DNA of 64,000 bases from positions 124,001 to 188,000 of the forward strand of contig NZ_FCNV02000007.1 in assembly GCF_001544615.1 (NCBI RefSeq), written 5' to 3'. Below, in pieces: positions 8,055 to 30,830 of this stretch (position 1 is its first letter; each line of letters begins with the position of its first letter). Under the pieces are notes generated by a model. It did no database searches, had not been told where the DNA came from, and was given only the letters and a program-made list of their open reading frames with translations. A program made the position numbers and the translations under genes. The DNA comes from Caballeronia concitans (lineage in GTDB: Bacteria > Pseudomonadota > Gammaproteobacteria > Burkholderiales > Burkholderiaceae).

Positions 8055-8055
8055 G

Positions 8056-10290: not shown

Positions 10291-10301
10291 GGAGCCTACT
10301 C

Positions 10302-14958: not shown

Positions 14959-15671
14959 ATTTCCGATGATTGCGACAACGGTTGGTCGAGCGTGATACCC
15001 AATTCACTCGCCATGCGTTCCACCATGACGCGCAATTGAGCGACTTCATGCACGAGGCGCTTTTGCTCGGCCTTCAATGCCTCGAATTCGGAAGGCGCAA
15101 ACGTTTCGCTGGGTGCGGCTTCGCGAACGGGCGCGTCGGTCAAACTCACTGCGCCGCACAACAGATGCATCCAGCGGCTCTCGCGTTCGCCCGGCGTGCG
15201 CGGCAGCTTGACGACGCGCGGCGGATCGTTGGCGGCCAATTCATCGAGAAAGCTCTCCACCGACGATATATCCGCGAAGCCATGCAGGCGCGCGCTGTTG
15301 GCGCGCAACTCCGCGGCGGTTTGCGGGCCACGCAGGAAGAGCGTTGCGAGCAGCGCCACCGATTGACTCGGCACGCCGAGCACGCGATTGATGTTGTGCT
15401 CGAAACGCGGCACCCGGCTGCTGCTTCCTTCCAGTACGAGCGAAAGGCGCTTGAGGCTGTCGATGGTCGTCAGCACTTCGTCTTCGCTGACATTCATGAC
15501 CGGCGAGCGCGCGGTTTTCTGATTGCAGCCCGCGATAAGCGAATTCAGCGATAGCGGATACGTATCCGGGACGGTCTGCTGCTTCTCGACGAGCACGCCC
15601 AGCACGCGCGCTTCGAGTGCATTGAGTTCGCGCAAGGCGGGACGGGGTGCGGCTTCGGTAGGTGTATTCAT
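14955..15671 (-). CDS. YceH/UPF0502 (DUF480) family protein
   Basis: 238 residues. The start LNALEARVLGVLVEKQQTVPDTYPLSLNSL followed by AGCNQKTARSPV (quoted in part) is the DUF480 signature: two winged-helix-like domains. The C-terminal tail is coiled-coil-like (EFEALKAEQKRLVHEVAQLRVM). Molecular function is not established; winged-helix folds suggest nucleic acid binding. It precedes mnmD with a 4-nt overlap. Confidence 0.9.
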   Translation of the reverse strand: MNTPTEAAPRPALRELNALEARVLGVLVEKQQTVPDTYPLSLNSLIAGCNQKTARSPVMNVSEDEVLTTIDSLKRLSLVLEGSSSRVPRFEHNINRVLGVPSQSVALLATLFLRGPQTAAELRANSARLHGFADISSVESFLDELAANDPPRVVKLPRTPGERESRWMHLLCGAVSLTDAPVREAAPSETFAPSEFEALKAEQKRLVHEVAQLRVMVERMASELGITLDQPLSQSSEM

Positions 15672-16090
15672 CGACGTTCGAAGTAATGCGGTCAGACGCC
15701 TATCATACCGGCGCGCCGGCGCTTACTATCAAATGACGCACCGTCGTGCGGCATGTTGCCGTGCAGCCATCGGAAATGCCGCGCGTTTTTGGTGCAGAAA
15801 GACTTTTACTCAAGCAGTTTCAGTTCGAATTCGCCGGAATAAAGACGTTGTTCGCTTGGCATTGATGTTGCTGTGATTGGATCGGCACTGGGCTGCCCAC
15901 GCAAGCGATGCACGCCGAGAGAAGGCATTGCGCTTAGAGGTCGCCTAAAGAACCAGGCAACGCCGGCTGGCTTGGAACCGAGTCGGGCATGCCGCGTCGC
16001 TAGGCGCTTCGAATCATTGCGAGTGCAACCAGAATGATTAAACGATAGGGGATCGCGGTCCCGGCCCGCACTTGATATGGAAGTCTCTCC
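15672..16090. other. 419-bp intergenic region before the ATP-grasp cluster
   Basis: No gene seen. It separates the divergent yceH-mnmD pair from the ATP-grasp cluster and must carry both promoters. A GC palindrome around 15709-15720 (CCGGCGCGCCGG) is probably chance in this composition. Confidence 0.4.
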
Positions 16091-17563
16091 ATGACGCAAG
16101 CATTCTTCAACGAGATGTTCGAGCGCAATGACCTGGAAGCGCGTGGAGTGCCAGCGTCGGCGTTTCGGGGCGTGGGCGATCCACGCTCGCATTACCGCGA
16201 ATTCATGGAATGGCTCAGCGCGCAGAGCGAGCAGCAGATCGACTTGAAGCGCGCGGAGGCGGATCTCAACTTCCGGCGCGTCGGCATTACCTTCGCCGTC
16301 TATGGAACGAGCGATGTCCCCGGCATCATTCCCGAACGCACGATTCCGTTCGATGTCATTCCGCGCATCTTTCCCGCAGACGAATGGCGCGCGCTGGAGC
16401 GCGGTCTCAGGCAACGCGTGAACGCGCTCAACCGCTTCATCCACGACATCTATCACGATCAGGACATCATCCGCGCGGGCATCATTCCTGAAGCGCAGAT
16501 CGTCGGCAACGCGCAGTATCGGCCGCAAATGCGCGGTGTCGATGTGACGCGGAATATCTATGCGCATATCGCGGGCATCGATATCGTGCGTGCGGGGCAG
16601 GGTGAGTTTTATGTGCTCGAAGACAATCTGCGCGTGCCGTCGGGCGTGTCGTACATGCTGGAAAACCGCAAGATGATGATGCGGCTCTTCCCCGATCTCT
16701 TCGCGCGCAATCGTGTGGCGCCCGTCGCGCATTACCCGGATCTGTTGCTCGATACCTTGCGTGCAGCGGCGCCAGTGAGCGCGGTGAACCCGAACGTCGT
16801 CGTGATGACGCCGGGCATGTACAACTCCGCATACTTCGAGCACGCGTTCCTTGCGCAGCAAATGGGCGTGGAGTTAGTGGAAGGGCAAGACTTGTTCGTC
16901 GACGACGATCATGTCTATATGCGCACCACGCAAGGGCCCCAGCGCGTGGACGTGATTTACCGCCGCGTCGACGATGACTTCCTGGACCCGCTTGTTTTCC
17001 GCGCGGATTCCGCGTTGGGCGTCGCGGGGCTGATTTCGGCGTATCGCGCGGGCAATGTCTCGCTATGCAATGCAGTGGGGACGGGTATCGCGGATGACAA
17101 GTCCATTTATCCGTATGTGCCGGACATGGTTCGCTTCTATCTGGGAGAAGAACCCATTCTGAACAACGTGCCCACGTGGATGTGCCGCAAGCCTGACGAT
17201 CTCAAGTATGTGCTCGCGCATTTGCCGGAACTCGTCGTCAAGGAAACGCATGGCGCGGGCGGATATGGGATGCTGGTCGGGCCTTCGTCGACAGCCGCGC
17301 AAATCGCGGAGTTTCGCGCGGTGCTCGAAGCAAACCCCGAGAAATACATCGCACAGCCGACGCTCGCGCTCTCGACTTGTCCGACCTATGTGGAAGCGGG
17401 CATCGCGCCCCGGCATATCGATCTACGACCGTTCGTGCTCTCCGGCACGGAAGTGCGCATGGTGCCCGGCGGCCTGACGCGCGTTGCCTTGCGCGAAGGC
17501 TCGCTCGTCGTCAATTCGTCGCAAGGAGGCGGCACGAAAGATACCTGGGTGCTGGAACGCTAA
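16091..17563 (+). CDS. Circularly permuted type 2 ATP-grasp protein (DUF404/DUF407)
   Basis: 490 residues; ATG at 16091. The family joins an amino group to a carboxylate through an acyl-phosphate, using ATP, with the ATP-grasp lobes circularly permuted. Seen here: the N-terminal PFDVIPRIFPADEW and RALNRFIHDIYHDQ regions (the latter reads VNALNRFIHDIY), then VVMTPGMYNSAYFEHAFLA, and near the C-terminus a lysine plus glycine-rich phosphate loop, VVKETHGAGGYGMLVGP. No signal peptide. It is followed after 72 nt by an alpha-E gene, its constant partner in this family. Substrates of such amidoligases are unknown; a peptide-like product is the usual prediction. Confidence 0.9.
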   Translation: MTQAFFNEMFERNDLEARGVPASAFRGVGDPRSHYREFMEWLSAQSEQQIDLKRAEADLNFRRVGITFAVYGTSDVPGIIPERTIPFDVIPRIFPADEWRALERGLRQRVNALNRFIHDIYHDQDIIRAGIIPEAQIVGNAQYRPQMRGVDVTRNIYAHIAGIDIVRAGQGEFYVLEDNLRVPSGVSYMLENRKMMMRLFPDLFARNRVAPVAHYPDLLLDTLRAAAPVSAVNPNVVVMTPGMYNSAYFEHAFLAQQMGVELVEGQDLFVDDDHVYMRTTQGPQRVDVIYRRVDDDFLDPLVFRADSALGVAGLISAYRAGNVSLCNAVGTGIADDKSIYPYVPDMVRFYLGEEPILNNVPTWMCRKPDDLKYVLAHLPELVVKETHGAGGYGMLVGPSSTAAQIAEFRAVLEANPEKYIAQPTLALSTCPTYVEAGIAPRHIDLRPFVLSGTEVRMVPGGLTRVALREGSLVVNSSQGGGTKDTWVLER

Positions 17564-17635
17564 GAGACACCAAGACGCTGACGACTAAAACATCAAGACG
17601 CGCATAGACCATCAAGACTTAAAGCGAGAACAGCC

Positions 17636-18646
17636 ATGCTTAGCCGCACCGCGGATCATCTCTTCTGGATGGCGCGTTATACCGAGCGCGCTGAAAACAC
17701 CGCGCGCATGCTCGACGCAAACTATCAGCTCTCGCTCCTGCCGCAATCGGACGAATATGCGGAGCTTGGATGGCGCGCGATGCTGTCGATTTCCGAACTG
17801 AGCGGAACTTACTCGGCGGCGCATCACGGCATGAAGAGCCGCGAGGTCATCGACTTCATGTCGCGCGACATGACCAATCCCTCTTCGATTCTCAGTTGTC
17901 TGCGCGCCGCACGTGAGAACGCGCGTGCGGTTCGCAGTTCGACCAATAGCGAGCTTTGGGAAACGCTCAATACGACGTGGCTCGATGGCCAGCGCCTGCT
18001 GGCGGACGGCATTCTCGATCGCGAGCCGTACACGTTCTTCGAATGGGTGAAGTTCCGTTCGCATTTGTCGCGCGGCGTGCAGCTCGGCACGCTCGTCAAG
18101 GACGATGCGTTCTATTTCATGCGACTCGGCACCTTCATCGAACGCGCGGACAACACAGCACGCATTCTCGACGTCAAGTTCGAAATGATGGAGCAGCGTG
18201 CCGATACGTCGGCGCAGCCCTTCGATTACCACCACTGGACGGCGGTGCTCGGTTCGGTTTCAGGCTTCGAGGTGTATCGCAGGGTGTATCGCGATGTCAT
18301 CACGCCCGAGCGCGTGGCAGGGCTGCTCATTCTTTATCGCGACTGGCCGCGCTCCCTGGCGGCGGCCATTGCGGAAGCGGAACAACTCATTGGTCAAGTG
18401 ACCAACGGACGTCATTCCGAAGCGGCACGCCTCGCCGCGCAATTGAGCGCCGAGCTTAAGAACGGTGATATCGGCGCAATTCTGCAAGGCGGTCTGCACG
18501 CGTATCTCGTGAATTTTCTTGCGCGCGTGAACGAACTCGCAAGCCAGATCAGCCGCGAGTTTCTGTTGCCGATCGCACCGGAGGAGCCTGAGATCACGCA
18601 AGCTCCTTCTCAAACGCAGTCGCAAACGCAAAGCTCGTCGAGTTGA
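17636..18646 (+). CDS. Alpha-E domain protein
   Basis: 336 residues, all-helical alpha-E domain, beginning LSRTADHLFWMARYTERAENTARM, the family signature (an arginine/glutamate-rich helix). It always travels with circularly permuted ATP-grasp proteins and is thought to work with them, perhaps as the other half of the ligase or as a substrate-binding part; no chemistry has been shown. The last 20 residues are Gln/Ser/Thr-rich. A second alpha-E domain occurs fused at 23334-25916. Confidence 0.9.
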   Translation: MLSRTADHLFWMARYTERAENTARMLDANYQLSLLPQSDEYAELGWRAMLSISELSGTYSAAHHGMKSREVIDFMSRDMTNPSSILSCLRAARENARAVRSSTNSELWETLNTTWLDGQRLLADGILDREPYTFFEWVKFRSHLSRGVQLGTLVKDDAFYFMRLGTFIERADNTARILDVKFEMMEQRADTSAQPFDYHHWTAVLGSVSGFEVYRRVYRDVITPERVAGLLILYRDWPRSLAAAIAEAEQLIGQVTNGRHSEAARLAAQLSAELKNGDIGAILQGGLHAYLVNFLARVNELASQISREFLLPIAPEEPEITQAPSQTQSQTQSSSS

Positions 18647-18654
18647 ACGTGCGC

Positions 18655-19716
18655 CTAGCGCCTGGCCGCCGCCGCCACGACACGATGCACGAAACGCAGC
18701 TTGTCGATGACCGGCGGCGCGAGCGCGAACGGATAACCGTCCGGCATGCCGAGGCTGCGGTTCAGGCTGTTCAGCACATAAGTGAGGGGAAACCAGCGAT
18801 TCATGAGGTTATCGAACGTGGTTTCCTCGATAGGCGTCTGGTCGGTGAGCGTGGGTTCGTTCGGCGTATCCGGCACGAGCACGAGGCCGCAGGACACGGC
18901 GGTATCGAGCGTATCCACGATATGCAGGTAATGCGCCCATGTTTCCGCCCAGTCTTCCCACGGATGCATGGTCGCGTATGCGCTGATGTAATTGTCGGCC
19001 CAGTTCGGCGGCGGGCCTTGCTTGTAATGGCGATCGAGCGCGGCGGCATAGTCTTGCTGCTCGTCGCCGAAAGCCGTGCGAAATGCCTTGATGCGCGGTG
19101 TATCCGCAATCAGGCGATCGAAGAAATAGTGCCCTGTTTCATGACGAAAATGACCGAGCAGCGTCCGATACGGCTCGTGCAGCGAAGAACGGAGTTTCTC
19201 GCGATGCGCGTCGTCAGCTTCGGCAACGTTCAGCGTGATGAGGCCGTTGTTATGACCGGTCATCACGCCCTTGCCTTCGGCGTCGGCTTCGAGGAACTGG
19301 AATTCGAGTCCGTGTTCCGGGTCTTGCTGACGCGACGTGACATCGAGACCCAGTTCGCCGAGCGTGTAGAGCAGGCGGCGCTTCGCGTTCTCTATGCGAT
19401 ACCAGTAAAGACGATTCTCCGGCTGCGCAAGATTGGGAATGGTGCTCGTGAGTTGGCAAGAGCAGCAGAGCGTGTCCTCGGAGTCGGCGGGAATGACCCA
19501 ATTGCAGACGTTCTCGACTGCATAGTTATGGCAAGGACGATAGAACAAATCCTTTGCAAGCGGATGCAGGCTTTTCCAGCGGCCATCGTCGGTTTCTTCA
19601 AAGGCACTGATCTGACTCAGCTCGGGCACGTAGCCAAGCCGCGCGCCGCATTTTTCGCAATGCGTGTTTTCGAAAAACACGAGTTGATTGCAACGATTGC
19701 AATGAAAGGTCTTCAT
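18655..19716 (-). CDS. Zinc-ribbon putative metallopeptidase (DUF2248-like)
   Basis: 353 residues. The start has two CxxC pairs (CNRC and CEKC, within the first 25 residues) forming a zinc ribbon, with further cysteines at LCCSCQ. The middle has RHETGHYFFDRL, an HExxH zinc-protease motif, and a C-terminal WEDWAETWAHYLHI that could supply the third ligand. This matches a family annotated as putative zinc-binding metallopeptidase. It is convergent with the alpha-E gene (8 nt apart) and divergent from the large transglutaminase gene, inside the ATP-grasp cluster. A processing or hydrolytic role in that system is plausible but inferred. Confidence 0.8.
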   Translation of the reverse strand: MKTFHCNRCNQLVFFENTHCEKCGARLGYVPELSQISAFEETDDGRWKSLHPLAKDLFYRPCHNYAVENVCNWVIPADSEDTLCCSCQLTSTIPNLAQPENRLYWYRIENAKRRLLYTLGELGLDVTSRQQDPEHGLEFQFLEADAEGKGVMTGHNNGLITLNVAEADDAHREKLRSSLHEPYRTLLGHFRHETGHYFFDRLIADTPRIKAFRTAFGDEQQDYAAALDRHYKQGPPPNWADNYISAYATMHPWEDWAETWAHYLHIVDTLDTAVSCGLVLVPDTPNEPTLTDQTPIEETTFDNLMNRWFPLTYVLNSLNRSLGMPDGYPFALAPPVIDKLRFVHRVVAAAARR

Positions 19717-19841
19717 GGTGTGGACCGGAAGGAGGAACGGACCGAGCGTTGGCGGGGTGGGTCAGCGCGACGGTTGCAAGGAGCGTGCCCCGCCTGACAG
19801 CCAAGCCTCTTTCCAGAGAAAAACCGATCAAGGAGTTGCGT

Positions 19842-22800
19842 GTGTCCATTCGTGTCGCGTTGAACCATGTCACGCATTACCGCTATGACCGCCTCGTCGG
19901 CTTGTCGCCGCAAGTGGTGCGCTTGCGGCCCGCACCGCATTGCCGCACGCCCATTCTTTCTTACTCGATACGCGTCGAACCCGAGGAACACTTCATCAAC
20001 TGGCAACAGGACGCATTCGCGAACTATCAGGCGCGGCTCGTTTTTCCCGAGAAAACACGCGAATTCAAGGTGACGGTCGATCTCGTCGCGGAGATGGCCG
20101 TCTACAACCCATTCGATTTCTTTCTCGAACCGTCTGCGGAAACGTTTCCCTTCAGTTATGCGCCGGATCTGCTGCACGACCTTGCGCCGTATATGGTGAA
20201 GCGCGAATTGACCCCGCGCTTTGCGGCGTTCGTCGAAAGCATCGACCGTTCAACGGCGCACCCGACAGTGAATTTCCTCGTCGATTTGAATCAGCGCCTG
20301 GCGAATGAAATTCGCTATCTCATTCGCATGGAGCCGGGCGTGCAGACGCCGGAAGAAACGCTTGCGCGTGCGGCGGGGTCGTGTCGCGATTCCGGCTGGC
20401 TGCTTGTCGAAACACTGCGGCATCTGGGACTCGCCGCGCGCTTCGTGTCCGGCTATCTGCTGCAACTCGCGCCCGACGTGAAATCGCTCGATGGCCCGAG
20501 CGGCACCGAAGTCGACTTCACCGACCTGCATGCGTGGTGCGAAGTCTTTCTGCCGGGCGCGGGGTGGATCGGCTTCGATCCGACTTCGGGCCTGCTCGCG
20601 GGCGAAGGACACATTCCCGTCGCGTGCACGCCGGAGCCGGATAGCGCAGCGCCCGTTTCCGGTGCGGTCGAGAAATGCGAAGTCGAATTCACTCATGCGA
20701 TGTCCATCGAACGTGTGCTCGAGACGCCGCGTGTGACGAAGCCTTATAGCGATGATGACTGGGACGCGGTCCTGCGCATGGGCGCACAAGTGGATGCGCA
20801 ACTGGAGGCATCCGATGTGCGCCTGACGATGGGCGGCGAGCCGACCTACGTTTCGGTGCGCGACCGCGATGCACCGGAATGGAACACCGACGCGCTCGGG
20901 CCGACCAAGCGCGCGTATGCGGTCTCGCTGATGAACAAGCTGCGCGCGCAATACGGCGGGGGCGGCTTTCTCCATATTGGTCAGGGCAAGTGGTATCCGG
21001 GCGAGCAATTGCCGCGCTGGGCCTTGTCGCTTTACTGGCGCGCGGACGGCGAACCTTGCTGGACCGACCCATCGCTTCTCGCCGACGAACGGCAGCCCGC
21101 GAACTACACATCCGACGACGCCGCGCGCTTCATTCAACATCTCGCGGGCAAGCTGTCTTTGGATACAAAATACATTCAGCCCGGCTACGAAGACACCTGG
21201 TATTACCTTTGGCGCGAACGCCGGTTGCCGGTGAATGTCGATCCTTTCGACTCGCGCCTCGGCGACGAACTCGAACGCGTCCGTCTTCGCCGCGTCTTCG
21301 ATGCAGGCCTGTCATCGGTCATCGGCTATGCGCTGCCCGTCGCCCGAGAGGAAGCGGACGCCTCCGGCGCGGCGCGCTGGCGGACGGGCCCGTGGTTCCT
21401 GCGCGACGAGCGCATGTACCTCGTTCCCGGCGATTCGCCGATGGGCTACCGCTTGCCGCTCGACTCGCTGCCGTGGGTATCGGAAGGCGACTACCCGTGG
21501 CAACACGAGCACGATCCGTTCGCGCCGTCCGCGCCGCTTCGTCGTGCGGCCGAACTCCGCATGCAATACATGCAAGACGCCGATTTGCATGCTGCATCCG
21601 GCATGCCGCATGCAAAACGCCAAATCGAGCCCGATGCGACCGCCACGAGCACCGACCGCGTCCCCGCGCGGGGCGAGTCGGCGGCGTGGATCGCGCGTAC
21701 CGCGATCTGCGTGGAAGCGCGCGACCCGGCGCGTGCCGCCGGCCCGAAGGCGGAAGCCGAGGCGCTGAAGACGTCGGAGCAGGGCAGTCAAGGCAACAAG
21801 CTGATGCACGTTTTCATGCCCCCGCTTTCGGGCATCGACGAGTATCTCGATCTGCTCGCCGCCGTCGAAGCGACCGCTGCGGATTTGCGGATGCCCGTCA
21901 TTATCGAAGGCTATCCGCCGCCGCGCGATGCGCGTCTGAAGCTGCTTCAGGTCACGCCCGACCCCGGCGTGGTGGAGGTGAACATTCATCCGGCGTCGAA
22001 CTGGAACGAGCTCGTCGATCACACCGAATTCCTCTACAACGCCGCGCACGAGTCGTATCTGAGCCCGGAGAAATTCATGCTGGACGGCCGCCACACCGGC
22101 ACCGGCGGCGGCAATCACTTCGTGCTCGGCGGCGCGACCCCGCCCGACAGCCCGTTCCTGCGACGCCCCGATCTGCTCGCGAGCCTGATCGCGTACTGGC
22201 ACAACCATCCGTCGCTCTCGATGCTGTTTTCCGGCCTCTTCATCGGCCCTACAAGCCAGGCGCCGCGCGTCGACGAGGCGCGCAACGATCAGGTCTATGA
22301 ACTCGAGATCGCATTCGCCGAACTTCAGCGGCAAGTGGACCTACTCGGCGGACGCGGCAGCGCGGCGGTGCCGCCGTGGCTCATCGACCGCATTCTGCGC
22401 AACATCCTGATCGATGTGACGGGCAACACGCACCGCGCGGAATTCTGCATCGACAAACTGTATTCGCCGGATGGACCAACCGGCCGCCTCGGCCTGCTCG
22501 AACTGCGCGGATTCGAAATGCCGCCTCACGCGCGTATGAGTCTCGTGCAGCAACTGCTCTTGCGTGCGCTCGTCGCGCGCTTTTGGCAGACGCCGTACAC
22601 GGCGCGCCTCACGCGCTGGGGCACCGAGCTGCATGATCGCTTCATGCTGAGCACGTTCGTGCAGATGGACTTCGACGACGTGCTCGCCGAACTGCGCGAC
22701 GCCGGTTTCGCATTCGAACGCAAATGGTTCGATCCGCATTTTGAATTCCGTTTTCCGCTCGTCGGTGAATACGATACCAACGGCATTTCGCTCACCATCC

Positions 22801-23291
22801 GCAACGCGCTGGAGCCGTGGCACGTGCTGGGCGAGACGGGCGCGATCGGCGGCACCGTGCGTTATGTCGATTCATCCGTCGAGCGGCTCGAAGTGCTTGC
22901 AATCGGCTTGAACGACAACCGTCATGTGGTGACCGTGAATGGCGAACGCTTGCCGCTGCAATCGACCGGACGCGTGAGCGAATATGTCGCGGGCGTGCGC
23001 TTTCGGGCATGGCGGCAGGCACAGGCGCTGCATCCGACGATCGATGCGCATGCGCCGCTCACGTTCGATATCGTCGATACATGGACGGGCCGCTCGATCG
23101 GCGGATGTCAGTATCATGTTGCGCATCCGGGCGGACGCAACTACGAGACGTTCCCGGTCAATGCATACGAAGCGGAAAGCCGCCGCCGCGCGCGCTTCTT
23201 TGCAAGCGGCCATACGCCGGGACGGTTGAGTATCGAGCCGCGCGAACGCAGCCTCGAATTTCCGTTCACGCTCGACATGCGTCGCCGCTGA
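19842..23291 (+). CDS. Large transglutaminase-like protein with DUF2126 domain
   Basis: 1149 residues. I start at the GTG at 19842: AGGAG lies six bases upstream and the following SIRVALNHVTHYRYDR is the conserved family start; an in-frame ATG at 19749 adds only low-complexity residues. Residues 1-280 are a transglutaminase/protease fold with triad Cys181 (GSCRDSGW), His230 (LHAWCE) and Asp246 (GFDPTSG). The remaining 850 residues are DUF2126, with ASDVRLTMGGEPTYVS, HNHPSLSMLFSG and LYSPDGPTGRLGLLELRGFE-like segments. Such proteins are predicted peptidases or amide-forming enzymes working with the ATP-grasp/alpha-E pair. No signal peptide. Confidence 0.9.
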   Translation: MSIRVALNHVTHYRYDRLVGLSPQVVRLRPAPHCRTPILSYSIRVEPEEHFINWQQDAFANYQARLVFPEKTREFKVTVDLVAEMAVYNPFDFFLEPSAETFPFSYAPDLLHDLAPYMVKRELTPRFAAFVESIDRSTAHPTVNFLVDLNQRLANEIRYLIRMEPGVQTPEETLARAAGSCRDSGWLLVETLRHLGLAARFVSGYLLQLAPDVKSLDGPSGTEVDFTDLHAWCEVFLPGAGWIGFDPTSGLLAGEGHIPVACTPEPDSAAPVSGAVEKCEVEFTHAMSIERVLETPRVTKPYSDDDWDAVLRMGAQVDAQLEASDVRLTMGGEPTYVSVRDRDAPEWNTDALGPTKRAYAVSLMNKLRAQYGGGGFLHIGQGKWYPGEQLPRWALSLYWRADGEPCWTDPSLLADERQPANYTSDDAARFIQHLAGKLSLDTKYIQPGYEDTWYYLWRERRLPVNVDPFDSRLGDELERVRLRRVFDAGLSSVIGYALPVAREEADASGAARWRTGPWFLRDERMYLVPGDSPMGYRLPLDSLPWVSEGDYPWQHEHDPFAPSAPLRRAAELRMQYMQDADLHAASGMPHAKRQIEPDATATSTDRVPARGESAAWIARTAICVEARDPARAAGPKAEAEALKTSEQGSQGNKLMHVFMPPLSGIDEYLDLLAAVEATAADLRMPVIIEGYPPPRDARLKLLQVTPDPGVVEVNIHPASNWNELVDHTEFLYNAAHESYLSPEKFMLDGRHTGTGGGNHFVLGGATPPDSPFLRRPDLLASLIAYWHNHPSLSMLFSGLFIGPTSQAPRVDEARNDQVYELEIAFAELQRQVDLLGGRGSAAVPPWLIDRILRNILIDVTGNTHRAEFCIDKLYSPDGPTGRLGLLELRGFEMPPHARMSLVQQLLLRALVARFWQTPYTARLTRWGTELHDRFMLSTFVQMDFDDVLAELRDAGFAFERKWFDPHFEFRFPLVGEYDTNGISLTIRNALEPWHVLGETGAIGGTVRYVDSSVERLEVLAIGLNDNRHVVTVNGERLPLQSTGRVSEYVAGVRFRAWRQAQALHPTIDAHAPLTFDIVDTWTGRSIGGCQYHVAHPGGRNYETFPVNAYEAESRRRARFFASGHTPGRLSIEPRERSLEFPFTLDMRRR

Positions 23292-23333
23292 GCGCATCGG
23301 TCACGCGCGAACATCATCGACTAAGAGACGACA

Positions 23334-25916
23334 TTGGCGTTCCAATCCACCTTGCCCTTCGATGCAACGGCCGCGCAACTCGATGCGCTCACGCTTCTGC
23401 GCGTGCTGCCCGCACGCGAAGGACGCTGGGACGAGTTGCGCGATGCGTCCGGCCAGTTGCGCGAACCGTGGCGCCAGTTCTTCGAACTGCTCGGCGAACA
23501 GGGCATTGCGCGCCTCGATGACGGCGTCGCGGCAGTCGCGCAACAGATTCGCGATAACGACATCACGTACAACGTCTATGCCGACAATGGCGAGCCGCGT
23601 GCATGGTCGCTCGACTTGCTGCCGCTCGTGATTGACGAGGACGAGTGGGCCGCGATCGAACGTGGCGTCGCGCAGCGGGCGCGTTTGATGGAAGCGATCA
23701 TCGCCGATACATACGGTCCGCAAACGCTCCTGCAACGCGGCTTGTTGCCGGGTGCGCTCGTGTTCGGGCATCCCGGTTATCTGCGTTCGGTGAAGGGCTT
23801 CATGCCGCCGGACGGGCGCTTTCTGCGGATCGTGGCGGTCGATCTCGCGCGTTCGCCATCGGGTGCGTGGACGGTCATCGCGCATCGCACGGAAGCGCCT
23901 TCGGGACTGGGTTATGCATTGGAGAACCGGCTGATCGTCGGGAGTCTCTTCACCGATCCTTTTCGTGCAATGCGCGTGAGCCGCCTCGCATCGACCTACT
24001 CACAACTCGTGGCCACGCTCGCGCAGGCGGCGCGCGCGACGATGCGCGATGACGAAGCGGATCGCAATGACGCGCCGCATATCGCGCTATTGACGCCGGG
24101 ACCATTCAGCGAAACTTACTTCGAACATGTGTTTCTCGCGCGTTATCTGGGCGTCACGCTCGTGGAAGGCAAGGACCTCACCGTGCGTCAGGACAAGCTG
24201 TATCTGAAGACGCTTGCGGGCCTCTCGCGCGTGCATGCCGTGCTGCGCCGCTTGGACGATGCGTTCTGCGATCCCGTCGAATTGCGAGCGGATTCGAGCA
24301 TCGGCGTGCCCGGTCTCTTGCAGGTCATGCGCGCGGGCAACGTGGCGATATCCAACGTGCCCGGCGCAGGTTTCACCGAATCGCCGGCACTCAATGCTTT
24401 CTTGCCGGGCATTGCCGATGCGTTGCTCGGTGAATCGCTCGAACTGCCCACGGTGCCGACATGGTGGTGCGGCGAAGAAGCCGCGCGCAGCGAAGCATTC
24501 GAGCAACTCGATGACGCATTGCTCGTGCCGACGTGGCCGGGCGCGCAAGCCGATCGTGCGCCCGGCATCGAGGCGGGCGTGCAGAAACTCGCGGACTGGC
24601 GCGAACGCATCGAACGTACGCCTGACGTCTTCACGTTGCAGCAGAGCTTGCCGTTCTCAAGCGCGCCGCGCTTTCATGATGGCGCGCTCGGCGCTCGCCC
24701 ATGTGTGTTGCGTGCTTATGCGATCGCCGATGTCGATGGCACATGGCGCGTGATGCCCGGCGGCTTCACGCGCCTCGCGGCCGACAGGCGCGCGACCGTC
24801 TCGATGCAATTCGGAGGCAGCAGCGTCGATACGTGGGTGCTGTCGAGCGAACCGGGACCGGCCACATCGTTGCGCCCTTCGATGAAGCCCGGCGATTTGC
24901 GCAAGCATCGCATCGTGTCGAGCCGCGCTGCGGAAAACCTCTTTTGGGCGGGACGTTATGGCGAACGCGTGGAGAACAACGTGCGTCTATGTCGCCTGTT
25001 GCTGGGTTCACTCGATACGAGCGATGCAGACGCGATGTTCAGCACGCTCGTCGAACTCGCGCAGCAGTGCGGCCTCATTCCATCCATCGATACGCTTGCA
25101 CGCAGCTCGCGACATGCGTTCGAACGCGTGCTCGTTGCGGGACTCGCGGAAAGCGCCACGCAGACGAGCATCGGCGGCAATCTCACGGAACAGGCGCGCG
25201 CATGCGGCGAGATACGCGACAGGCTTTCGACCGATCACTGGCGCACGATCCTCGCATCGCGCAATGACTTTCGCGATGCGTTGGCACGTCTCAAACTCGC
25301 ATCGCCTGAAGCGGGCTTCGACTATGACCGCGTGATGCTTTCGGGCGCACTGGAACATCTCGCCACGCAGCTTCTTGCGATCAGCGGCGCGCAAGGCGAT
25401 CGCATGACACGCGATGAAGCATGGCGGCTCATCTTTATCGGCAGAATGATCGAGCGCGTTTCGACGATGTCGACCTTTCTGCGCGCCGCCGCCGAACACG
25501 ACACACTCGGCGTGCCGGCGGGCTTCGACTTGCTGCTGCAACTTTTCGACAGCACGCTGACGTATCGCTCGCTCTATCCGGGGCGCCTCGAAGTGCCTGC
25601 GCTCATCGATCTGATCGTCGTGGACAGGACCAATCCGCGCGGGCTTTATGGCGTCTATGCGCGCTTGTGCGTGAAGCTCGATGAGATCGCCGCTGCGGCG
25701 GGTGGCGCACGGCGCGCGAATTTCTCGGGCATCGTTCCCCACGTGGATGCGTTGCCTCAACTCGAAACGCTCTGCGAAACGAGCGAGGACGGCCGCTATG
25801 CCAAGCTCATTGCCTTATGCGACTCGATGATTGCATCGGTGAGCGCGGCATCGACTGAAGTCAGCGCGCGCTATTTCAGCCACGCGAATACGCTTTCCGC
25901 GCAGGTGTCGTCATGA
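23334..25916 (+). CDS. Circularly permuted ATP-grasp fused to an alpha-E domain
   Basis: 860 residues. The start is uncertain: the best fit is a TTG at 23334 with a weak AAGAG upstream, because the conserved STLPFDATAAQLDALTLLRVLP follows at once. Residues 1-510 are a second circularly permuted ATP-grasp; from about 527 a second alpha-E domain begins (SSRAAENLFWAGRYGERVENN). Compared with the stand-alone copy at 16091, the TPGPFSETYFEHVFLARYLG region is kept but the KExxGAGGYGM phosphate loop is not recognisable, so this copy may be inactive or altered. It sits 42 nt after the large transglutaminase gene and overlaps the next gene by 4 nt. Confidence 0.88.
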   Translation: MAFQSTLPFDATAAQLDALTLLRVLPAREGRWDELRDASGQLREPWRQFFELLGEQGIARLDDGVAAVAQQIRDNDITYNVYADNGEPRAWSLDLLPLVIDEDEWAAIERGVAQRARLMEAIIADTYGPQTLLQRGLLPGALVFGHPGYLRSVKGFMPPDGRFLRIVAVDLARSPSGAWTVIAHRTEAPSGLGYALENRLIVGSLFTDPFRAMRVSRLASTYSQLVATLAQAARATMRDDEADRNDAPHIALLTPGPFSETYFEHVFLARYLGVTLVEGKDLTVRQDKLYLKTLAGLSRVHAVLRRLDDAFCDPVELRADSSIGVPGLLQVMRAGNVAISNVPGAGFTESPALNAFLPGIADALLGESLELPTVPTWWCGEEAARSEAFEQLDDALLVPTWPGAQADRAPGIEAGVQKLADWRERIERTPDVFTLQQSLPFSSAPRFHDGALGARPCVLRAYAIADVDGTWRVMPGGFTRLAADRRATVSMQFGGSSVDTWVLSSEPGPATSLRPSMKPGDLRKHRIVSSRAAENLFWAGRYGERVENNVRLCRLLLGSLDTSDADAMFSTLVELAQQCGLIPSIDTLARSSRHAFERVLVAGLAESATQTSIGGNLTEQARACGEIRDRLSTDHWRTILASRNDFRDALARLKLASPEAGFDYDRVMLSGALEHLATQLLAISGAQGDRMTRDEAWRLIFIGRMIERVSTMSTFLRAAAEHDTLGVPAGFDLLLQLFDSTLTYRSLYPGRLEVPALIDLIVVDRTNPRGLYGVYARLCVKLDEIAAAAGGARRANFSGIVPHVDALPQLETLCETSEDGRYAKLIALCDSMIASVSAASTEVSARYFSHANTLSAQVSS

Positions 25917-26821
25917 ACGTGACGCTCGGCTCAACCGATAAATCCACGACGCTCGCGGTCACGCATCGCACGACGTACCGCTATTCCACGCCTGTCGAAA
26001 TCGCGCAGCATCTCGCGACCATTCGTCCGTTGCATTGCCCGTGGCAGCAGGTGATCGCGCATACGGAGCGCATCGAGCCGCCGCCTTCGTATGTGCATAG
26101 CCGCGTCGATACATTCGGCAATGACGTGCTGTACTTTTCACTCGATGCCCCGCACGAGCGTCTTTCGATGACGAGTGAAACCACCGTGCGCTTGAGTCCG
26201 CGCTGGGACCGTCTCGATCCGCACGCAACGCCGCCGTGGGAAGCGGTCGCGCAAAGGCTGCGTTATTGCGCGGGCGCTGCGTTCGTGCCGGAGAGCGAGT
26301 ATTGCTACGCGTCGCCCAACATCGTGATGAACGAAGCATTGCGCGAGTATGCGCGCACGAGCTTCACGAAGGGCACGCCGCTGATCGCAGGCGCGATCGA
26401 TCTCATGCATAGAATTCATTCGGACTTCGAATATAAACCGTCATCCACTGCATTCGATACCCCCGCCATGCGCGCATTCGAATTGAGGCGCGGCGTATGT
26501 CAGGACTTCGCGCAAGTGATGATTGGATGCCTGCGCGCGCTCGGCTTGCCCGCGCGTTACGTGAGCGGCTATTTGCGCAACGATCCGCCGCCGGGACATC
26601 CACGGCTCATTGGCGCGGATGCATCGCATGCGTGGGTGTCGCTGCATTGCCCGCAAAACGGATGGATTGATCTCGATCCGACCAACGACGTACTCGCCGA
26701 TCTCGATCACGTGACGCTGGCGACGGGCCGCGATTACAGCGACGTGTCGCTATTGCGCGGCATGATACTGGGCGGCGGCACGCATCATGTCGATGTCGCG
26801 GTGAACGTGCTCGCGCTCTGA
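25913..26821 (+). CDS. Transglutaminase-like cysteine protease family protein
   Basis: 302 residues; its ATG overlaps the previous stop (ATGA). The N-terminal beta domain carries VTHRTTYRYSTPVEIAQH; the core has the triad Cys196 (RRGVCQDFAQ), His239 (ASHAWVSL) and Asp255 (DLDPTND), plus GLPARYVSGYL. This is the small, stand-alone type of bacterial transglutaminase-like protein found with ATP-grasp/alpha-E pairs. Cytosolic by lack of a signal. Likely hydrolyses or exchanges amide bonds in a peptide substrate; unproven. Confidence 0.9.
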   Translation: MNVTLGSTDKSTTLAVTHRTTYRYSTPVEIAQHLATIRPLHCPWQQVIAHTERIEPPPSYVHSRVDTFGNDVLYFSLDAPHERLSMTSETTVRLSPRWDRLDPHATPPWEAVAQRLRYCAGAAFVPESEYCYASPNIVMNEALREYARTSFTKGTPLIAGAIDLMHRIHSDFEYKPSSTAFDTPAMRAFELRRGVCQDFAQVMIGCLRALGLPARYVSGYLRNDPPPGHPRLIGADASHAWVSLHCPQNGWIDLDPTNDVLADLDHVTLATGRDYSDVSLLRGMILGGGTHHVDVAVNVLAL

Positions 26822-26835
26822 GCGTGTATGTACGC

Positions 26836-27588
26836 CTAGCTCTGTGCGCGCCGCAAACGCTCTCTGCTGTTGATGAGATGCAGACGCATCGCGGTGCGCG
26901 CCGAATCGGCATCGCCACGTTCGATGGCATCCGCTATCTGTTCATGCTCGCGATTCACGCGCAGCAGATAGTCCGCGTATTCATCGCGCGGAATGGACGT
27001 GGCCGTCAGACGCGTGCGCGGAAACATGCGCAAGCCGAGATGCTCCATGATCTCCACGAAGTAGCGGTTGCCCGTTGCATGCGCGATCTCCAGATGAAAG
27101 CGAAAGTCGGGCGACACGGTGCCGCTCGCCGTGTCCACGCTGCGCGTGAAATCGTCGAGTGCGGAACGCATCGTGGCGAGCCTCGCGGAATCGCGGCGCA
27201 TGGCCGCCAGCCCTGCACATTCGGTCTCCAGGCTGATGCGCAATTCGAGGATCGCGAGCGCGTCCAGGGAGCCGGCGACATCGGCGGGATCGAGTTGCAA
27301 TAACGGCGATGCCGCTGCTTCGCATACGAACGTGCCGATGCCATGCCGCGTCTCGACGAGGCCGGCCGCCTGTAGCCGCGATAGCGCCTCACGCACGACG
27401 GTCCGGCTCACGCCGAAGCGCTGCACCATCTCCGCTTCGGTCGCGATCCTGCTGCCGGCCGCAAGCTCGCGCGATTCGATCTGCGCGCGCAGCGCATCGA
27501 CGAGCTGCGTCGTGAGGCTGCGTCGAATACCCGGCGCGAGCGTGGGCGAGGCGTTGGAAGCGGCAAGCGAATCTGGCGGTGGCGTCAC
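26836..27588 (-). CDS. FadR/FCD-type GntR transcriptional regulator
   Basis: 250 residues. A GntR winged helix (residues about 25-85, AAGSRIATEAEMVQRFGVSRTVVREAL in part) precedes an FCD all-helical effector domain that binds a metal and usually an organic acid (ELRISLETECAGLAA, FHLEIAHATGNRYF, NREHEQIADAI). It is divergent from the uronate dehydrogenase and ABC genes, with two dyads between them. Probably a repressor that responds to a uronate or aldarate. Confidence 0.9.
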   Translation of the reverse strand: MTPPPDSLAASNASPTLAPGIRRSLTTQLVDALRAQIESRELAAGSRIATEAEMVQRFGVSRTVVREALSRLQAAGLVETRHGIGTFVCEAAASPLLQLDPADVAGSLDALAILELRISLETECAGLAAMRRDSARLATMRSALDDFTRSVDTASGTVSPDFRFHLEIAHATGNRYFVEIMEHLGLRMFPRTRLTATSIPRDEYADYLLRVNREHEQIADAIERGDADSARTAMRLHLINSRERLRRAQS

Positions 27589-27603
27589 GGCGCTCCTGGC
27601 GTG

Positions 27604-27668
27604 GTTTTGACAAACGTTGACAAAACATTCGGTAAGTGATGATATGCGCCATGTTGTGATATGACAAC
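27604..27668. promoter_or_regulatory. Promoter and two operator-like dyads between the GntR gene and udh
   Basis: Two overlapping -35-like TTGACA hexamers (27607-27612 and 27617-27622) lie inside an imperfect dyad at 27604-27626 bounded by GTTTTG and CAAAAC. A second, perfect dyad, GTTGT-N6-ACAAC, is at 27653-27668. Both are suitable targets for the adjacent FCD regulator. The -10 element is not clear. Confidence 0.5.
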
Positions 27669-27726
27669 GTACAAGAACAGTCGCGCAGGGAAATCCCTAG
27701 TCGTGAACGCAGGAGACAAAATTCGC

Positions 27727-28575
27727 ATGGCACATCAACTGGACGCGCCCGCAACGGGCGGCGGCTTCACACGCTTGCTGCTGACGGGTGCGGCGGGCGG
27801 CATCGGGCGGGCGATCCGGCATCGCGTCGCCGAATTTGCATCTTGTATTCGAATTTCGGATTTGCCCGGCGCGCTGTCGAGCGATGCGTCGGCCAGCGAG
27901 GAAGTCGTGCCGTGCGATCTCGCCGACCGTCAGGCGGTGGATGCGCTCGTCGCCGGTTGCGATGCGATCGTCCATCTCGGCGGCGTCTCGGTGGAGCGGC
28001 CCTTCGAGGAGATTCTCGAAGCGAACATCAAGGGCGTGTTCAACCTTTACGAAGCGGCGCGGCGTCATGGCGTGAAGCGCATCGTGTTTGCAAGCTCGAA
28101 CCACGTGACCGGCTTTTATCGGCAAGACGAACGGATCGACGCCACGGCACGCAAGCGCCCCGATGGTTATTACGGCGTGTCGAAGTCCTTCGGCGAAGAC
28201 ATGGCGCAGCTGTACTTCGACCGTTATGGCGTGGAGACCGTGAGCATTCGCATCGGCTCGGTATTTTCCGAGCCGAAGGACCGCCGGATGATGGCGACGT
28301 GGATGAGCTACGACGACTTCCACAAGCTCTTGCAATGCGCGCTGTTTACGCCGCAAGTCGGGCACACGATCGTATTCGGCATGTCGGCGAATGCGTACAC
28401 GTGGTGGGACAACCGCGAGGCCGCGCATCTCGGCTTCGAGCCGCGCGACTCGTCCGAGCAGTTCCGCGCCAAAGTGGAAGCGACACCGCCGCCCGCCGCC
28501 GATGATCCCGTCTCCGTCCTGCAGGGCGGTGCGTTCACGGTCACCGGCCCGTTCGATCCCGTCGCGCCGGTTTAA
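27727..28575 (+). CDS. udh: NAD-dependent uronate dehydrogenase
   Basis: 282 residues from the ATG at 27727 (AGGAGA ten bases upstream; an earlier in-frame ATG at 27661 lies in the operator region). Short-chain dehydrogenase fold with nucleotide loop LLLTGAAGGIGRAI, and the family-specific GCDAIVHLGGVSVERPFEEI, FASSNHVTGFYR and catalytic YYGVSKSFGED (YxxxK). It oxidises galacturonate or glucuronate to the aldarolactone, the first step of the oxidative uronate route. It heads an operon with an ABC importer. The downstream aldarate enzymes are not in this window. Confidence 0.9.
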   Translation: MAHQLDAPATGGGFTRLLLTGAAGGIGRAIRHRVAEFASCIRISDLPGALSSDASASEEVVPCDLADRQAVDALVAGCDAIVHLGGVSVERPFEEILEANIKGVFNLYEAARRHGVKRIVFASSNHVTGFYRQDERIDATARKRPDGYYGVSKSFGEDMAQLYFDRYGVETVSIRIGSVFSEPKDRRMMATWMSYDDFHKLLQCALFTPQVGHTIVFGMSANAYTWWDNREAAHLGFEPRDSSEQFRAKVEATPPPAADDPVSVLQGGAFTVTGPFDPVAPV

Positions 28576-28662
28576 TGCATGCAGCACGCAACATGATGAA
28601 TGCCATCGCGCGTAGTCAGTCGTCATACGTCGATTACGCGTGAAGCAAAGGACATCGCCGCC

Positions 28663-29409
28663 ATGTTTTCTCTCGACTTCTCCCCGCTGCTGCCTTACTG
28701 GCCGACGTTCCTGCAGGGCGCATGGCTCACGCTCAAGATGACGTGCGTGGCTGTGTTCTTCGGCCTGATACTCGGCATGCTGGTCGCGTTCGCGAAGCGC
28801 GCCAAGCTGCCGGTATTGACGCGCCTGTGCATCGTCTATGTCGAGGCCGTGCGCAACACGCCGTTCCTCGTGCAGATCTTTCTGCTGTACTTCGGACTGG
28901 CGAGCATCGGTTTGCGGATGCCGACCTTCGCTGCCGCCGCGCTCGCCATGACGATCAACATCGGTGCCTATGCAGCGGAGATCATTCGCGCGGGCCTCGA
29001 ATCCGTGCCGCGCGGACAGATCGAAGCAGCCGAATGCCTCGGCTTGCCGAAATGGCGCATCGGCTGGCATGTGATGCTGCAGCCTTCCATCGAGAAGGTT
29101 TATCCGGCGCTGACCAGTCAGTTTCTCTTGATGATGCAGGCTTCCGCGATCGCATCGCAGATTTCCGCTGAAGAACTCACTGCCGTCGCGAATACGGTCC
29201 AATCGGACACGTTTCGTTCGCTCGAAACTTACATCGTGGTGGCGGCCTTGTATCTCGCGTTGTCCCTGCTCATTAAGTTGATTGCGTGGGCCATCGGCGA
29301 ACATGTGTTCAAGCGCCGCCGCGCCATTCGACTGGCGGCCAAGCGCGCGGGCAAGGCGCCGGCCGATCAGCAACGCATCGATACGGTCATTCCCGGAGGC
29401 GCGGCATGA
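28663..29409 (+). CDS. ABC transporter permease, polar amino acid type (first)
   Basis: 248 residues from the ATG at 28663, where the conserved FSPLLPYWPTFLQGAWLTLKMT begins. It is a HisM/GlnP-type permease: an N-terminal periplasmic start, five to six helices, VRNTPFLVQIFLLYFG, and the EAAECLGLPKWRIGWHVMLQP coupling loop. The C-terminus is a basic cytoplasmic tail. Its stop overlaps the next permease start. Confidence 0.88.
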   Translation: MFSLDFSPLLPYWPTFLQGAWLTLKMTCVAVFFGLILGMLVAFAKRAKLPVLTRLCIVYVEAVRNTPFLVQIFLLYFGLASIGLRMPTFAAAALAMTINIGAYAAEIIRAGLESVPRGQIEAAECLGLPKWRIGWHVMLQPSIEKVYPALTSQFLLMMQASAIASQISAEELTAVANTVQSDTFRSLETYIVVAALYLALSLLIKLIAWAIGEHVFKRRRAIRLAAKRAGKAPADQQRIDTVIPGGAA

Positions 29410-30059
29410 GCGGCGGATTCACTTACGCGCACCTCGTCTATCTGGTGCAATCCATCGGCTGGACGCTCGTGCTGTCCGTGCTCGCTTTCTTGCTTGGCGG
29501 AATAGGCGGCTTCGTCGTGATGCTTGCGCGCATCTCGCCGCGTGCGTGGCTTTCGCGCACGGCGCTCGTCTACATCGAAGCCATTCAGGGCATCCCGTTG
29601 CTCATTCTGCTATTCATCGTGTATTTCGGGTTGTCCGTCTATGGCTATCAGGTGCCTGCGCTCGTTGCGGCAGGCATTGCATTGATGGTTTATTCGAGCG
29701 CTTATCTCGGCGATATCTGGCGCGGGTGTATCGAAGCCATGCCCAAGCCGCAGTGGGAAGCCGCCGAGTGTCTTTCGCTTTCGCGCTGGCAGAGCTTGCG
29801 GCTCGTGATCATTCCGCAAGCCATGCGTCTCGCATTGCCGCCCACGGTCGGTTTTCTCGTGCAACTCATCAAGATGACGTCGCTTGCTTCGGTGATCGGC
29901 TTCATTGAATTGACGCGCGCGGGGCAGATCATCAACAACTCGATCTTCCAGCCATTCCTCATCTTCGGTTTGGTCGGCGTGTTTTATTTCCTGCTGTGCT
30001 ATCCGCTTTCGCGCTGGAGCCAATCGATGGAGAACAAGCTCAATGTCAGCAATCGTTAA
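29406..30059 (+). CDS. ABC transporter permease, polar amino acid type (second)
   Basis: 217 residues; ATG at 29406 in an ATGA overlap with the first permease. Same family: IEAIQGIPLLILLFIVYFG and the coupling loop EAAECLSLSRWQSLRLVIIPQAMRLALPP (in part). The two permeases form the heterodimeric channel of the importer. It overlaps the ATPase gene by 17 nt. Confidence 0.88.
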   Translation: MSGGFTYAHLVYLVQSIGWTLVLSVLAFLLGGIGGFVVMLARISPRAWLSRTALVYIEAIQGIPLLILLFIVYFGLSVYGYQVPALVAAGIALMVYSSAYLGDIWRGCIEAMPKPQWEAAECLSLSRWQSLRLVIIPQAMRLALPPTVGFLVQLIKMTSLASVIGFIELTRAGQIINNSIFQPFLIFGLVGVFYFLLCYPLSRWSQSMENKLNVSNR

Positions 30060-30771
30060 GGTCGATGAGATTCACAAGAGCTTCGGCGCCAATCATGTGC
30101 TGAAGGGCGTGTCCTTCGAGGTCAACAAGGGCGAAATGATCGCCGTGATCGGCGCAAGCGGCTCGGGCAAAAGCACGGCGTTGCGTTGCATCGACCGGCT
30201 CGAAACCGTCGATCAGGGGCAGATCGAGGTATGCGGCATTCGCGTGGACGATCCGAAGGTCGACTTGCATCTGCTGAGGCGCGAAGTCGGCATCGTGTTC
30301 CAGAGCTATAACCTCTTTCCGCACTTGACGGTCGAAGAGAACATCATGCTTGCGCTGCGGCACGTGAAGAAGCTCCCACGCGATGAAGCGCGGCGCATCG
30401 CAACGAACGTGCTCGAACAAGTGGGACTCGGGCAGAAGGCCGAGTCGTATCCCGAGCAATTGTCGGGTGGACAGCAGCAGCGCGTTGCGATTGCGCGTTC
30501 GCTTGCCATGTCGCCGAAGGTCATGCTGTTCGATGAAGTGACATCGGCGCTGGACCCGCAACTCACGGGCGAAGTGCTGCGCGTGATGGAAGACCTCGCC
30601 GCCGACGGCATGACGATGCTGCTCGTCACGCATGAAATGGCGTTCGCCAAGCGCGTGGCGGATCGCATCATCTATATGCATCACGGCAAGGTGTGGGAAG
30701 TCGGCGACGGCGGCATGCTGGACGCGCCACGCACGCCTGAATTGCGCGCCTTCCTGGACAACGGGCTTTAA
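30043..30771 (+). CDS. ABC transporter ATP-binding protein, polar amino acid type
   Basis: 242 residues, GlnQ/HisP-like. Walker A IGASGSGKST, Q-loop FQSYNLFPHLTV, signature LSGGQQQRVAIARSLAM, Walker B MLFDEVTSALDP and the switch histidine in LLVTHEMAFA are all intact. It energises the two preceding permeases. Confidence 0.93.
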   Translation: MSAIVKVDEIHKSFGANHVLKGVSFEVNKGEMIAVIGASGSGKSTALRCIDRLETVDQGQIEVCGIRVDDPKVDLHLLRREVGIVFQSYNLFPHLTVEENIMLALRHVKKLPRDEARRIATNVLEQVGLGQKAESYPEQLSGGQQQRVAIARSLAMSPKVMLFDEVTSALDPQLTGEVLRVMEDLAADGMTMLLVTHEMAFAKRVADRIIYMHHGKVWEVGDGGMLDAPRTPELRAFLDNGL

Positions 30772-30830
30772 TAGGTTGAAGGCTTTAATGCGTTTTACTC
30801 TTTGAATATCAATAACGACGGAGACATCAC

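Follow-up and report, generated by a model that had tools for sequence, protein, structure and literature searches.

A sigma-54-type promoter signature and an apparent pseudo-ATP-grasp in an ATP-grasp/alpha-E/DUF2126 gene set of Caballeronia concitans

We analysed a gene set combining ATP-grasp, alpha-E, transglutaminase and DUF2126 domains in a stretch of 64,000 nucleotides from Caballeronia concitans (contig NZ_FCNV02000007.1 of assembly GCF_001544615.1, positions 124,001 to 188,000; the whole stretch is called the window). On the plus strand the set begins with ATPg1 (16091..17563), a circularly permuted (CP) ATP-grasp protein with intact motifs (Pfam CP_ATPgrasp_2, E 4.7e-171), and an alpha-E protein with both ER motifs intact (17636..18646; Pfam Alpha-E, 7e-90). 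Antisense within the set lies a zincin, a protein with a zinc-ribbon and a Peptidase_Mx domain carrying an HExxH motif (18655..19716, minus strand; Pfam E 8.5e-111). The plus strand continues with a giant protein that joins a transglutaminase to DUF2126, a putative amidoligase (19842..23291; Bact_transglu_N, Transglut_core and DUF2126, the last with 1320.7 bits), then with ATPg2-alphaE, an apparent pseudo-ATP-grasp fused to alpha-E (23334..25916; CP_ATPgrasp_2 4.9e-131, Alpha-E 7e-53), and a small stand-alone transglutaminase-like protein with an intact Cys-His-Asp triad (25913..26821; Bact_transglu_N and Transglut_core). The open reading frame of the giant spans 19749-23291; the GTG at 19842, from which most relatives align, is the probable true start. 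Pfam finds every domain that an earlier note, made from the letters of this DNA, had named for 16091..26821; the zincin gene and the promoter and leader region before ATPg1 (15780-16090) had been overlooked there. A plus-strand open frame at 18643-19797, which begins where alpha-E ends, was rejected as a gene: it has no Pfam match and overlies the antisense zincin.

For comparison we took the best 80 of 227 relatives encoding a DUF2126 relative, all of them chosen for DUF2126, which gave 81 loci with the window. Five alpha-E translations with an internal stop and matches covering <70% of the query were left out, and the protein sets, window included, comprised 60 ATPg1, 51 alpha-E, 35 zincin, 81 DUF2126, 76 fusion and 76 small transglutaminase sequences. 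The window genome (6.17 Mb) is closest to Caballeronia; in the best segment, its DUF2126 protein shares 90% identity with the C. grimmiae protein. The clustering of the set was borne out, as 79 of the 80 relatives show at least one further set gene within their stretch; the exception (L038) has DUF2126 alone, close to a contig end. Where a locus is long enough to cover the giant, the fusion and the small transglutaminase, the three almost always keep company, apart from L016, which lacks the fusion and the small transglutaminase, and L051, where the fusion is 8.5 kb away. The position of the ATPg1-alphaE pair varies: in Caballeronia it precedes the rest on the same strand, in Rubrivivax-like loci it follows, in Limnohabitans-like loci the opposite strand encodes it, and in some Paraburkholderia and Cupriavidus the stretch does not include it. 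Beyond the set, conservation of genes is almost confined to Caballeronia-like loci, which puts the ends of the unit near the limits that the earlier note had given. At ≥60% identity, the amidase and methyltransferase genes are kept in 17/80 loci each and the DUF480 gene in 18/80; the downstream SDR and ABC-transporter genes are kept in 1/80, that of C. grimmiae. The adjacent amidase, SDR and ABC-transporter genes were rejected as set members because they are not conserved with the set across the 80 relatives.

The ATP-grasp domains of the two alpha-E pairs differ sharply in their motifs. We checked 14 positions that we take to be ATP- and metal-binding, as established for ATP-grasp enzymes, and all were invariant in 60/60 split ATP-grasps. 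Eight of them (E177, N179, D335, D336, K337, G388, D444 and N475 in ATPg1 numbering) are kept in 0/76 fused ATP-grasps. The remaining ones are retained by few fused proteins (D178 and K483 in 2 each, G393 in 5, G391 in 11, G390 in 12 and K384 in 14), and K384 never occurs together with three of the four loop glycines, the alignment near position 384 being uncertain in fused proteins. In a wider sample of 88 rows (80 different), the ten positions checked were all kept in 51/51 ATPg1-type rows (44 different). Among its 37 fused rows (36 different), N179, D335, K337, D444 and N475 were never kept (with some gaps at D444 and N475), E177 was kept in 1 and D178 in 25, and K at 384 was present in 8, never with three loop glycines. 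A quick tree with several long branches separates the two types by one branch with 100% support in the Shimodaira-Hasegawa-like approximate likelihood ratio test (SH-aLRT), consistent with one origin. The solved relative of both, 3n6x_A, named a putative glutathionylspermidine synthase by its depositors, matches ATPg1 at E 9.9e-210 and the fused ATP-grasp at E 2.9e-64. ATPg1 thus has the ATP- and metal-binding residues of an active ATP-grasp, while the fused protein lacks them and seems to have lost its catalytic residues. The two related ligation steps that the earlier note had read from the split and the fused pair are therefore unsupported, and a second ligase, if there is any, is more likely DUF2126 than the fused ATP-grasp.

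The motifs of the other proteins and domains are mostly kept. The alpha-E ER motifs are kept in 51/51 stop-free translations; in the alpha-E part of the fusion one E is kept in 75/76 and the other positions in 76/76. Cys181, His230 and Asp246 of the giant's transglutaminase are kept in 81/81, as are most DUF2126 motif positions, and Cys196, His239 and Asp255 of the small transglutaminase in 76/76. DUF2126 shows the family profile and the conserved charged motifs of a putative amidoligase related to glutamine synthetase (GS) and glutamate-cysteine ligase (GCS). The zincin HExxH is kept in 35/35 loci. Counting the window itself, 36 of the 81 loci have a match to its zincin, and 35 of these matches are nearly full length; the loci belong to Burkholderia, Caballeronia, Paraburkholderia, Trinickia and, in one case, Ralstonia. 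In a separate set of 200 Pseudomonadota genomes, Peptidase_Mx occurs in 29, and by coordinates the zincin is within 15 kb of DUF2126, alpha-E or Anbu in ten of these; in five of the ten, chosen for linkage (L170-L174), it lies beside DUF2126 or beside Anbu and alpha-E. We regard the zincin as genuinely belonging to the set, though not in every locus.

Next to the head of the set we found signs of nitrogen control. A sigma-54 -24/-12 promoter-like site of the form GG-N10-GC, TGGCATTGATGTTGCT (15857..15872, plus strand), is an exact pattern match, begins 234 bases before ATPg1 and is conserved in Caballeronia. An NtrC-like dyad, CGCGCGTTTTTGGTGCA (15780..15796, plus strand), starts 77 bp upstream of the -24 element and has 11/13 letters of what we take to be the NtrC consensus. 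A further sigma-54-like site, GGGCACGCTCCTTGCA (19775..19790, minus strand), lies 74 nt before the zincin start. The exact sigma-54 pattern occurs 21 times in the genome, versus 6 times for the reversed pattern. For the 20 other exact sites we took the longest frame starting ≤450 bases downstream and scanned 16 of the 20 frames for families; the genes found include those for P-II, a NarK-like protein, RpoN, NtrC, UrtA, DctA and a sigma-54 activator. Other sites precede genes without an evident nitrogen link, among them those for a Mn catalase, a starch-synthase-like protein and GH114.

Across the relatives, the gene at the head of the group, whichever it is, tends to be preceded by a sigma-54 promoter-like site, and this holds for several gene orders. 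The scores use weights of our own, with a core consensus that agrees with PMC5491218 (this and the other papers are cited from excerpts), and because the best site per stretch was taken for both sigma-54 and dyad scores, they are meaningful only against control rates. We omitted matches that begin beyond query residue 40, as well as upstream stretches <200 bases. A score ≥24.5 was reached before 72/161 head genes versus 9/223 internal genes and 1.4% of 349 random flank pieces. Among heads this held for 27/47 ATPg1 and 39/75 DUF2126 genes; among internal genes, for 0/71 fusions, 4/77 small transglutaminases, 3/56 alpha-E genes and 2/13 internal ATPg1 genes. Only 6/35 zincin genes reach 24.5, but 35/35 reach 23, with 34 of these sites 60-121 nt upstream; 34/223 internal genes reach 23. 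The site before DUF2126 depends on gene order: it reaches 24.5 in 0/33 loci in which ATPg1 precedes DUF2126 on the same strand (one attains 23.5) and in 39/48 otherwise, namely 14/14 with ATPg1 on the opposite strand, 12/13 with ATPg1 downstream and 13/21 with ATPg1 not in the stretch. The 33 loci serve as a fair control, since their upstream stretches, too, are mostly intergenic. Since DUF2126 has no site of its own where ATPg1 precedes it, transcription of the window giant probably starts at the ATPg1 promoter and crosses the zincin gene in antisense direction. In 12 ATPg1-bearing stretches from other genomes, a site ≥25 precedes ATPg1 in 7.

A dyad score of at least 11/13 was reached by 27/37 ATPg1 heads and 15/43 DUF2126 heads with a sigma-54-like site, by 1/32 DUF2126 heads without one, and by 6.8% of 498 random pieces. 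Of the 37 ATPg1 heads, 9 have 13/13 letters and 8 have 12/13, and all of these 17 but L019 have the dyad at the same place. In seven of eight loci (L020, L021, L022, L024, L026, L027 and L061; not L017) a 13/13 dyad lies between divergent zincin and DUF2126 promoters, and it seemingly serves both. Lack of co-expression, which by the earlier note would have spoken against a joint function, is not what these data suggest: the shared sigma-54-like sites and the published NtrC dependence of similar genes point the other way.

NtrC dependence, and also induction by nitrogen limitation, were reported for other species. In an ntrC mutant of B. cenocepacia H111, four similarly annotated genes were 6.0- to 9.4-fold down (PMC5491218). 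In wild-type P. putida, nitrogen limitation raised PP_2686-2688 11- to 15-fold (PMC7801951), and PP_2685-2687 were up in another study too (PMC3325844). In Bradyrhizobium, an RpoN site was predicted before a CP_ATPgrasp_1 gene (PMC13207237). In Caulobacter, transcription of hvyA, named a transglutaminase homologue in that study, was 3-fold up without NtrC (PMC10274813). For Y. bercovieri, phosphate release from ATP is reported for the ATP-grasp protein of an Anbu operon (PMC6376114).

We propose, with a probability of about 0.5, that the set encodes an intracellular amide ligation and hydrolysis system of the CP ATP-grasp/alpha-E kind, whose genes NtrC and sigma-54 activate under nitrogen starvation. 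A single ATP-grasp that appears competent, a further putative ligase, a pair of transglutaminase-type proteins, a metallopeptidase, no conserved small substrate gene, no evident secretion signal in the translations (by inspection only) and the signs of nitrogen control together favour such a conjugate-and-cleave system inside the cell. ATPg1, working with alpha-E, would be the sole catalytically competent ATP-grasp and would make an ATP-driven amide bond. The giant may supply two activities, a further, GS-like ligase (DUF2126) and a thiol hydrolase or transferase of the transglutaminase type, and the fused ATP-grasp/alpha-E would be a non-catalytic partner or scaffold, perhaps within a complex. 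The small transglutaminase and the zincin would cut or transfer amides. The likely use of the system would be nitrogen recycling, in which a nitrogen-bearing peptide or amine is first conjugated and afterwards cleaved again, the genes presumably being expressed and co-transcribed in this strain when nitrogen is short. A more specific version makes the fusion an indispensable partner without catalysis of its own, docking substrates between ATPg1 and DUF2126 in a nitrogen-starvation amide-ligase complex; its product, a tag or storage peptide, would be re-cleaved by the transglutaminases, the zincin and Anbu, and the long sigma-54 transcript running antisense through the zincin would balance making against breaking. 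We consider this version unlikely.

Several observations weigh against the proposed system or its control. A P. putida rpoN mutant still raises PP_2686-2688 14- to 20-fold (PMC7801951 Table 2), which speaks against sigma-54 dependence in that species; the urt genes, thought by the authors of that paper to be under NtrB/NtrC, also stay induced in the mutant. PP_2685, which encodes Anbu, was up only 1.1-, 4.8- and 1.5-fold in three strains (PMC7801951). The published tests of Anbu gave no peptidase activity and no specific binding to operon partners (PMC6376114). The window dyad has only 11 of the 13 letters, a score that random pieces reach at the 6.8% given above and that stronger dyads of relatives exceed, and 5/10 ATPg1 heads without a sigma-54-like site also reach it. 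The window DUF2126 lacks a site of its own, so that its control rests on the proposed read-through antisense to the zincin. The loci compared are related and the contrast between gene orders reflects few independent rearrangements, and the random and internal control pieces are largely coding. In the stretches from other genomes, 5/12 (L144, L151, L170, L171 and L173) lack a site ≥25 before ATPg1, and in L172 DUF2126 is not preceded by one. ATPg1 lacks a neighbouring alpha-E match in six loci of Paraburkholderia (L025, L028, L029, L033, L036 and L041); these carry ATPg1 and the zincin, with no alpha-E match between or beside the two. Finally, in a sequence search of solved structures the ligase part of DUF2126 had no match among solved ligases.

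Could the set instead tag proteins for turnover? The ligases would then attach a peptide or an amino acid to proteins, and Anbu, the zincin or the transglutaminases would remove the tag or degrade the protein, recycling amino acids in nitrogen starvation; a protein-tagging prediction is credited to Iyer et al. 2009 in PMC6376114. This genome has an Anbu gene, found by protein query and without its usual operon partners, on contig 28 (L166, 6862-7737), the set being on contig 15. Its product matches solved Anbu chains (5loy_A, E 3.8e-96). Absence of Anbu was rejected: a profile search had given one Proteasome-family match of 181 amino acids, and the protein query then found Anbu. The Proteasome profile misses Anbu (a Pfam scan of two Anbu proteins gave no family at 1e-5); phmmer against solved structures finds it at once. 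In the 200 genomes, DUF2126 occurs in 63, alpha-E in 112 and Anbu in 68. Alpha-E is present in 63/63 DUF2126 genomes (57/63 with at least two copies), 67/68 Anbu genomes and 28/29 Peptidase_Mx genomes; the Fisher values for such associations take no account of how the genomes are related. This company of alpha-E also counts in favour of the amide ligation and hydrolysis system proposed above. Mutual exclusion of Anbu and DUF2126 was rejected, as 35 of the 200 genomes have both, 28 only DUF2126 and 33 only Anbu. The near-constant company of Anbu and alpha-E agrees with tagging, and control by nitrogen starvation would fit turnover. However, Anbu is unlinked to the set here, no sigma-54-like site ≥25 was found in the 14-kb stretch around it, the 28 DUF2126-only genomes have no Anbu match at E 1e-10, and the published pull-downs and peptidase assays were negative (PMC6376114). 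We regard tagging as possible and, on balance, doubtful.

Another possibility is amine scavenging, for which gamma-glutamyl-polyamine routes are the model: the GS-like DUF2126 would gamma-glutamylate amines, and the transglutaminase and peptidase domains would release usable nitrogen. Pfam labels DUF2126 a putative amidoligase, genes for putrescine/spermidine and urea transport belong, alongside the similarly annotated genes, to the published NtrC regulon (PMC5491218), and marine metagenomes associate such genes with urea metabolism domains (PMC3597751). But 0/9 outside genes tested are conserved with the set beyond close kin, none of the nine is an amine-catabolic gene, and the second ATP-grasp protein would be left unexplained, which makes this reading improbable. 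Two catalytically active ATP-grasp/alpha-E pairs are very improbable: both proteins match CP_ATPgrasp_2 far above the cut-off and the fused one keeps many fold residues, its alpha-E ER motifs and, in 25/37 rows of the wider sample, D178, but the loss of E177, N179, D335, K337, D444 and N475 and the scattered K at 384 described above argue otherwise. A pathway for a ribosomally synthesised and post-translationally modified peptide (RiPP), with a small nearby gene as precursor, is hardly plausible. ATP-grasp ligases do occur in RiPP pathways, but the conserved small substrate gene for which the earlier note had suggested a search was not found among 35 small open frames in five gaps. None of these is broadly conserved; the best, which lies antisense in the leader, has matches in 12/79 other loci along 23 residues. 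Neighbour genes change between genera.

The proposed amide ligation and hydrolysis system resembles several described sets. Its family content in Pfam and the published descriptions place it, as the earlier note had done, among predicted peptide- or amide-modifying systems (PMC6376114, PMC5666114). Systems of CP ATP-grasp and GS-like ligases were predicted by Iyer et al. 2009, according to these two papers. As in those systems, a CP ATP-grasp lies beside alpha-E here and the transglutaminase-like and DUF2126 partners are present; going by the second-hand description, what sets this one apart is the zincin, the sigma-54/NtrC signature and the motif loss in the fused ATP-grasp. The Anbu operon (ATP-grasp, alpha-E, transglutaminase, Anbu) has the same ATP-grasp/alpha-E pair in the same order, and nitrogen-limitation induction is reported for its genes. 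In the window, however, the pair is not followed by a transglutaminase and Anbu: the antisense zincin follows alpha-E, the DUF2126 module lies beside the pair, and Anbu is alone on the other contig. I35_5080-5083 of B. cenocepacia H111, in the NtrC/sigma-54 regulon, bring together DUF404/407, DUF403, transglutaminase and large transglutaminase genes (PMC5491218); the likeness is one of annotation rather than sequence, and the excerpt lists four genes and mentions neither an ATP-grasp/alpha-E fusion nor a zincin. In a literature search that covered mostly papers outside subscription, we noticed no report of an inactive fused ATP-grasp, a zincin member or a moving promoter and found no paper naming the product. 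The kind of system is already known; these three features appear, tentatively, to be new.

We know of no identified product for these gene sets, which are common, as the counts for alpha-E and DUF2126 in the 200 genomes show. The sigma-54/NtrC signature tells experimenters when to look, namely under nitrogen limitation, and the motif loss shows which ATP-grasp to assay, the fused one to be treated as a partner. These pointers make a question open since 2009 directly testable.

The leader of about 220 nt between the promoter-like site and ATPg1 (15873..16090, plus strand) contains blocks whose conservation covers Caballeronia and, in part, L015, L018, L019 and L023. Its first and last conserved blocks are complementary, with covariation not above control. 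A structured leader RNA was rejected: there was no Rfam match, 15880-16090 folds no better than shuffles (z +1.19), and in the leader alignment 96.3% of cells were paired versus 95.8% in shuffles, with no excess of covariation. Sigma-70-type promoters in 15600-27700 numbered 3, versus 3.4 expected. Downstream of the set, 26836-31625 holds what are likely separate genes: a minus-strand frame that looks GntR-like when judged by eye, an SDR gene and a polar amino-acid ABC transporter. On the other side, 7957-11597 encodes a molybdopterin-binding dehydrogenase subunit and then a cytochrome c protein.

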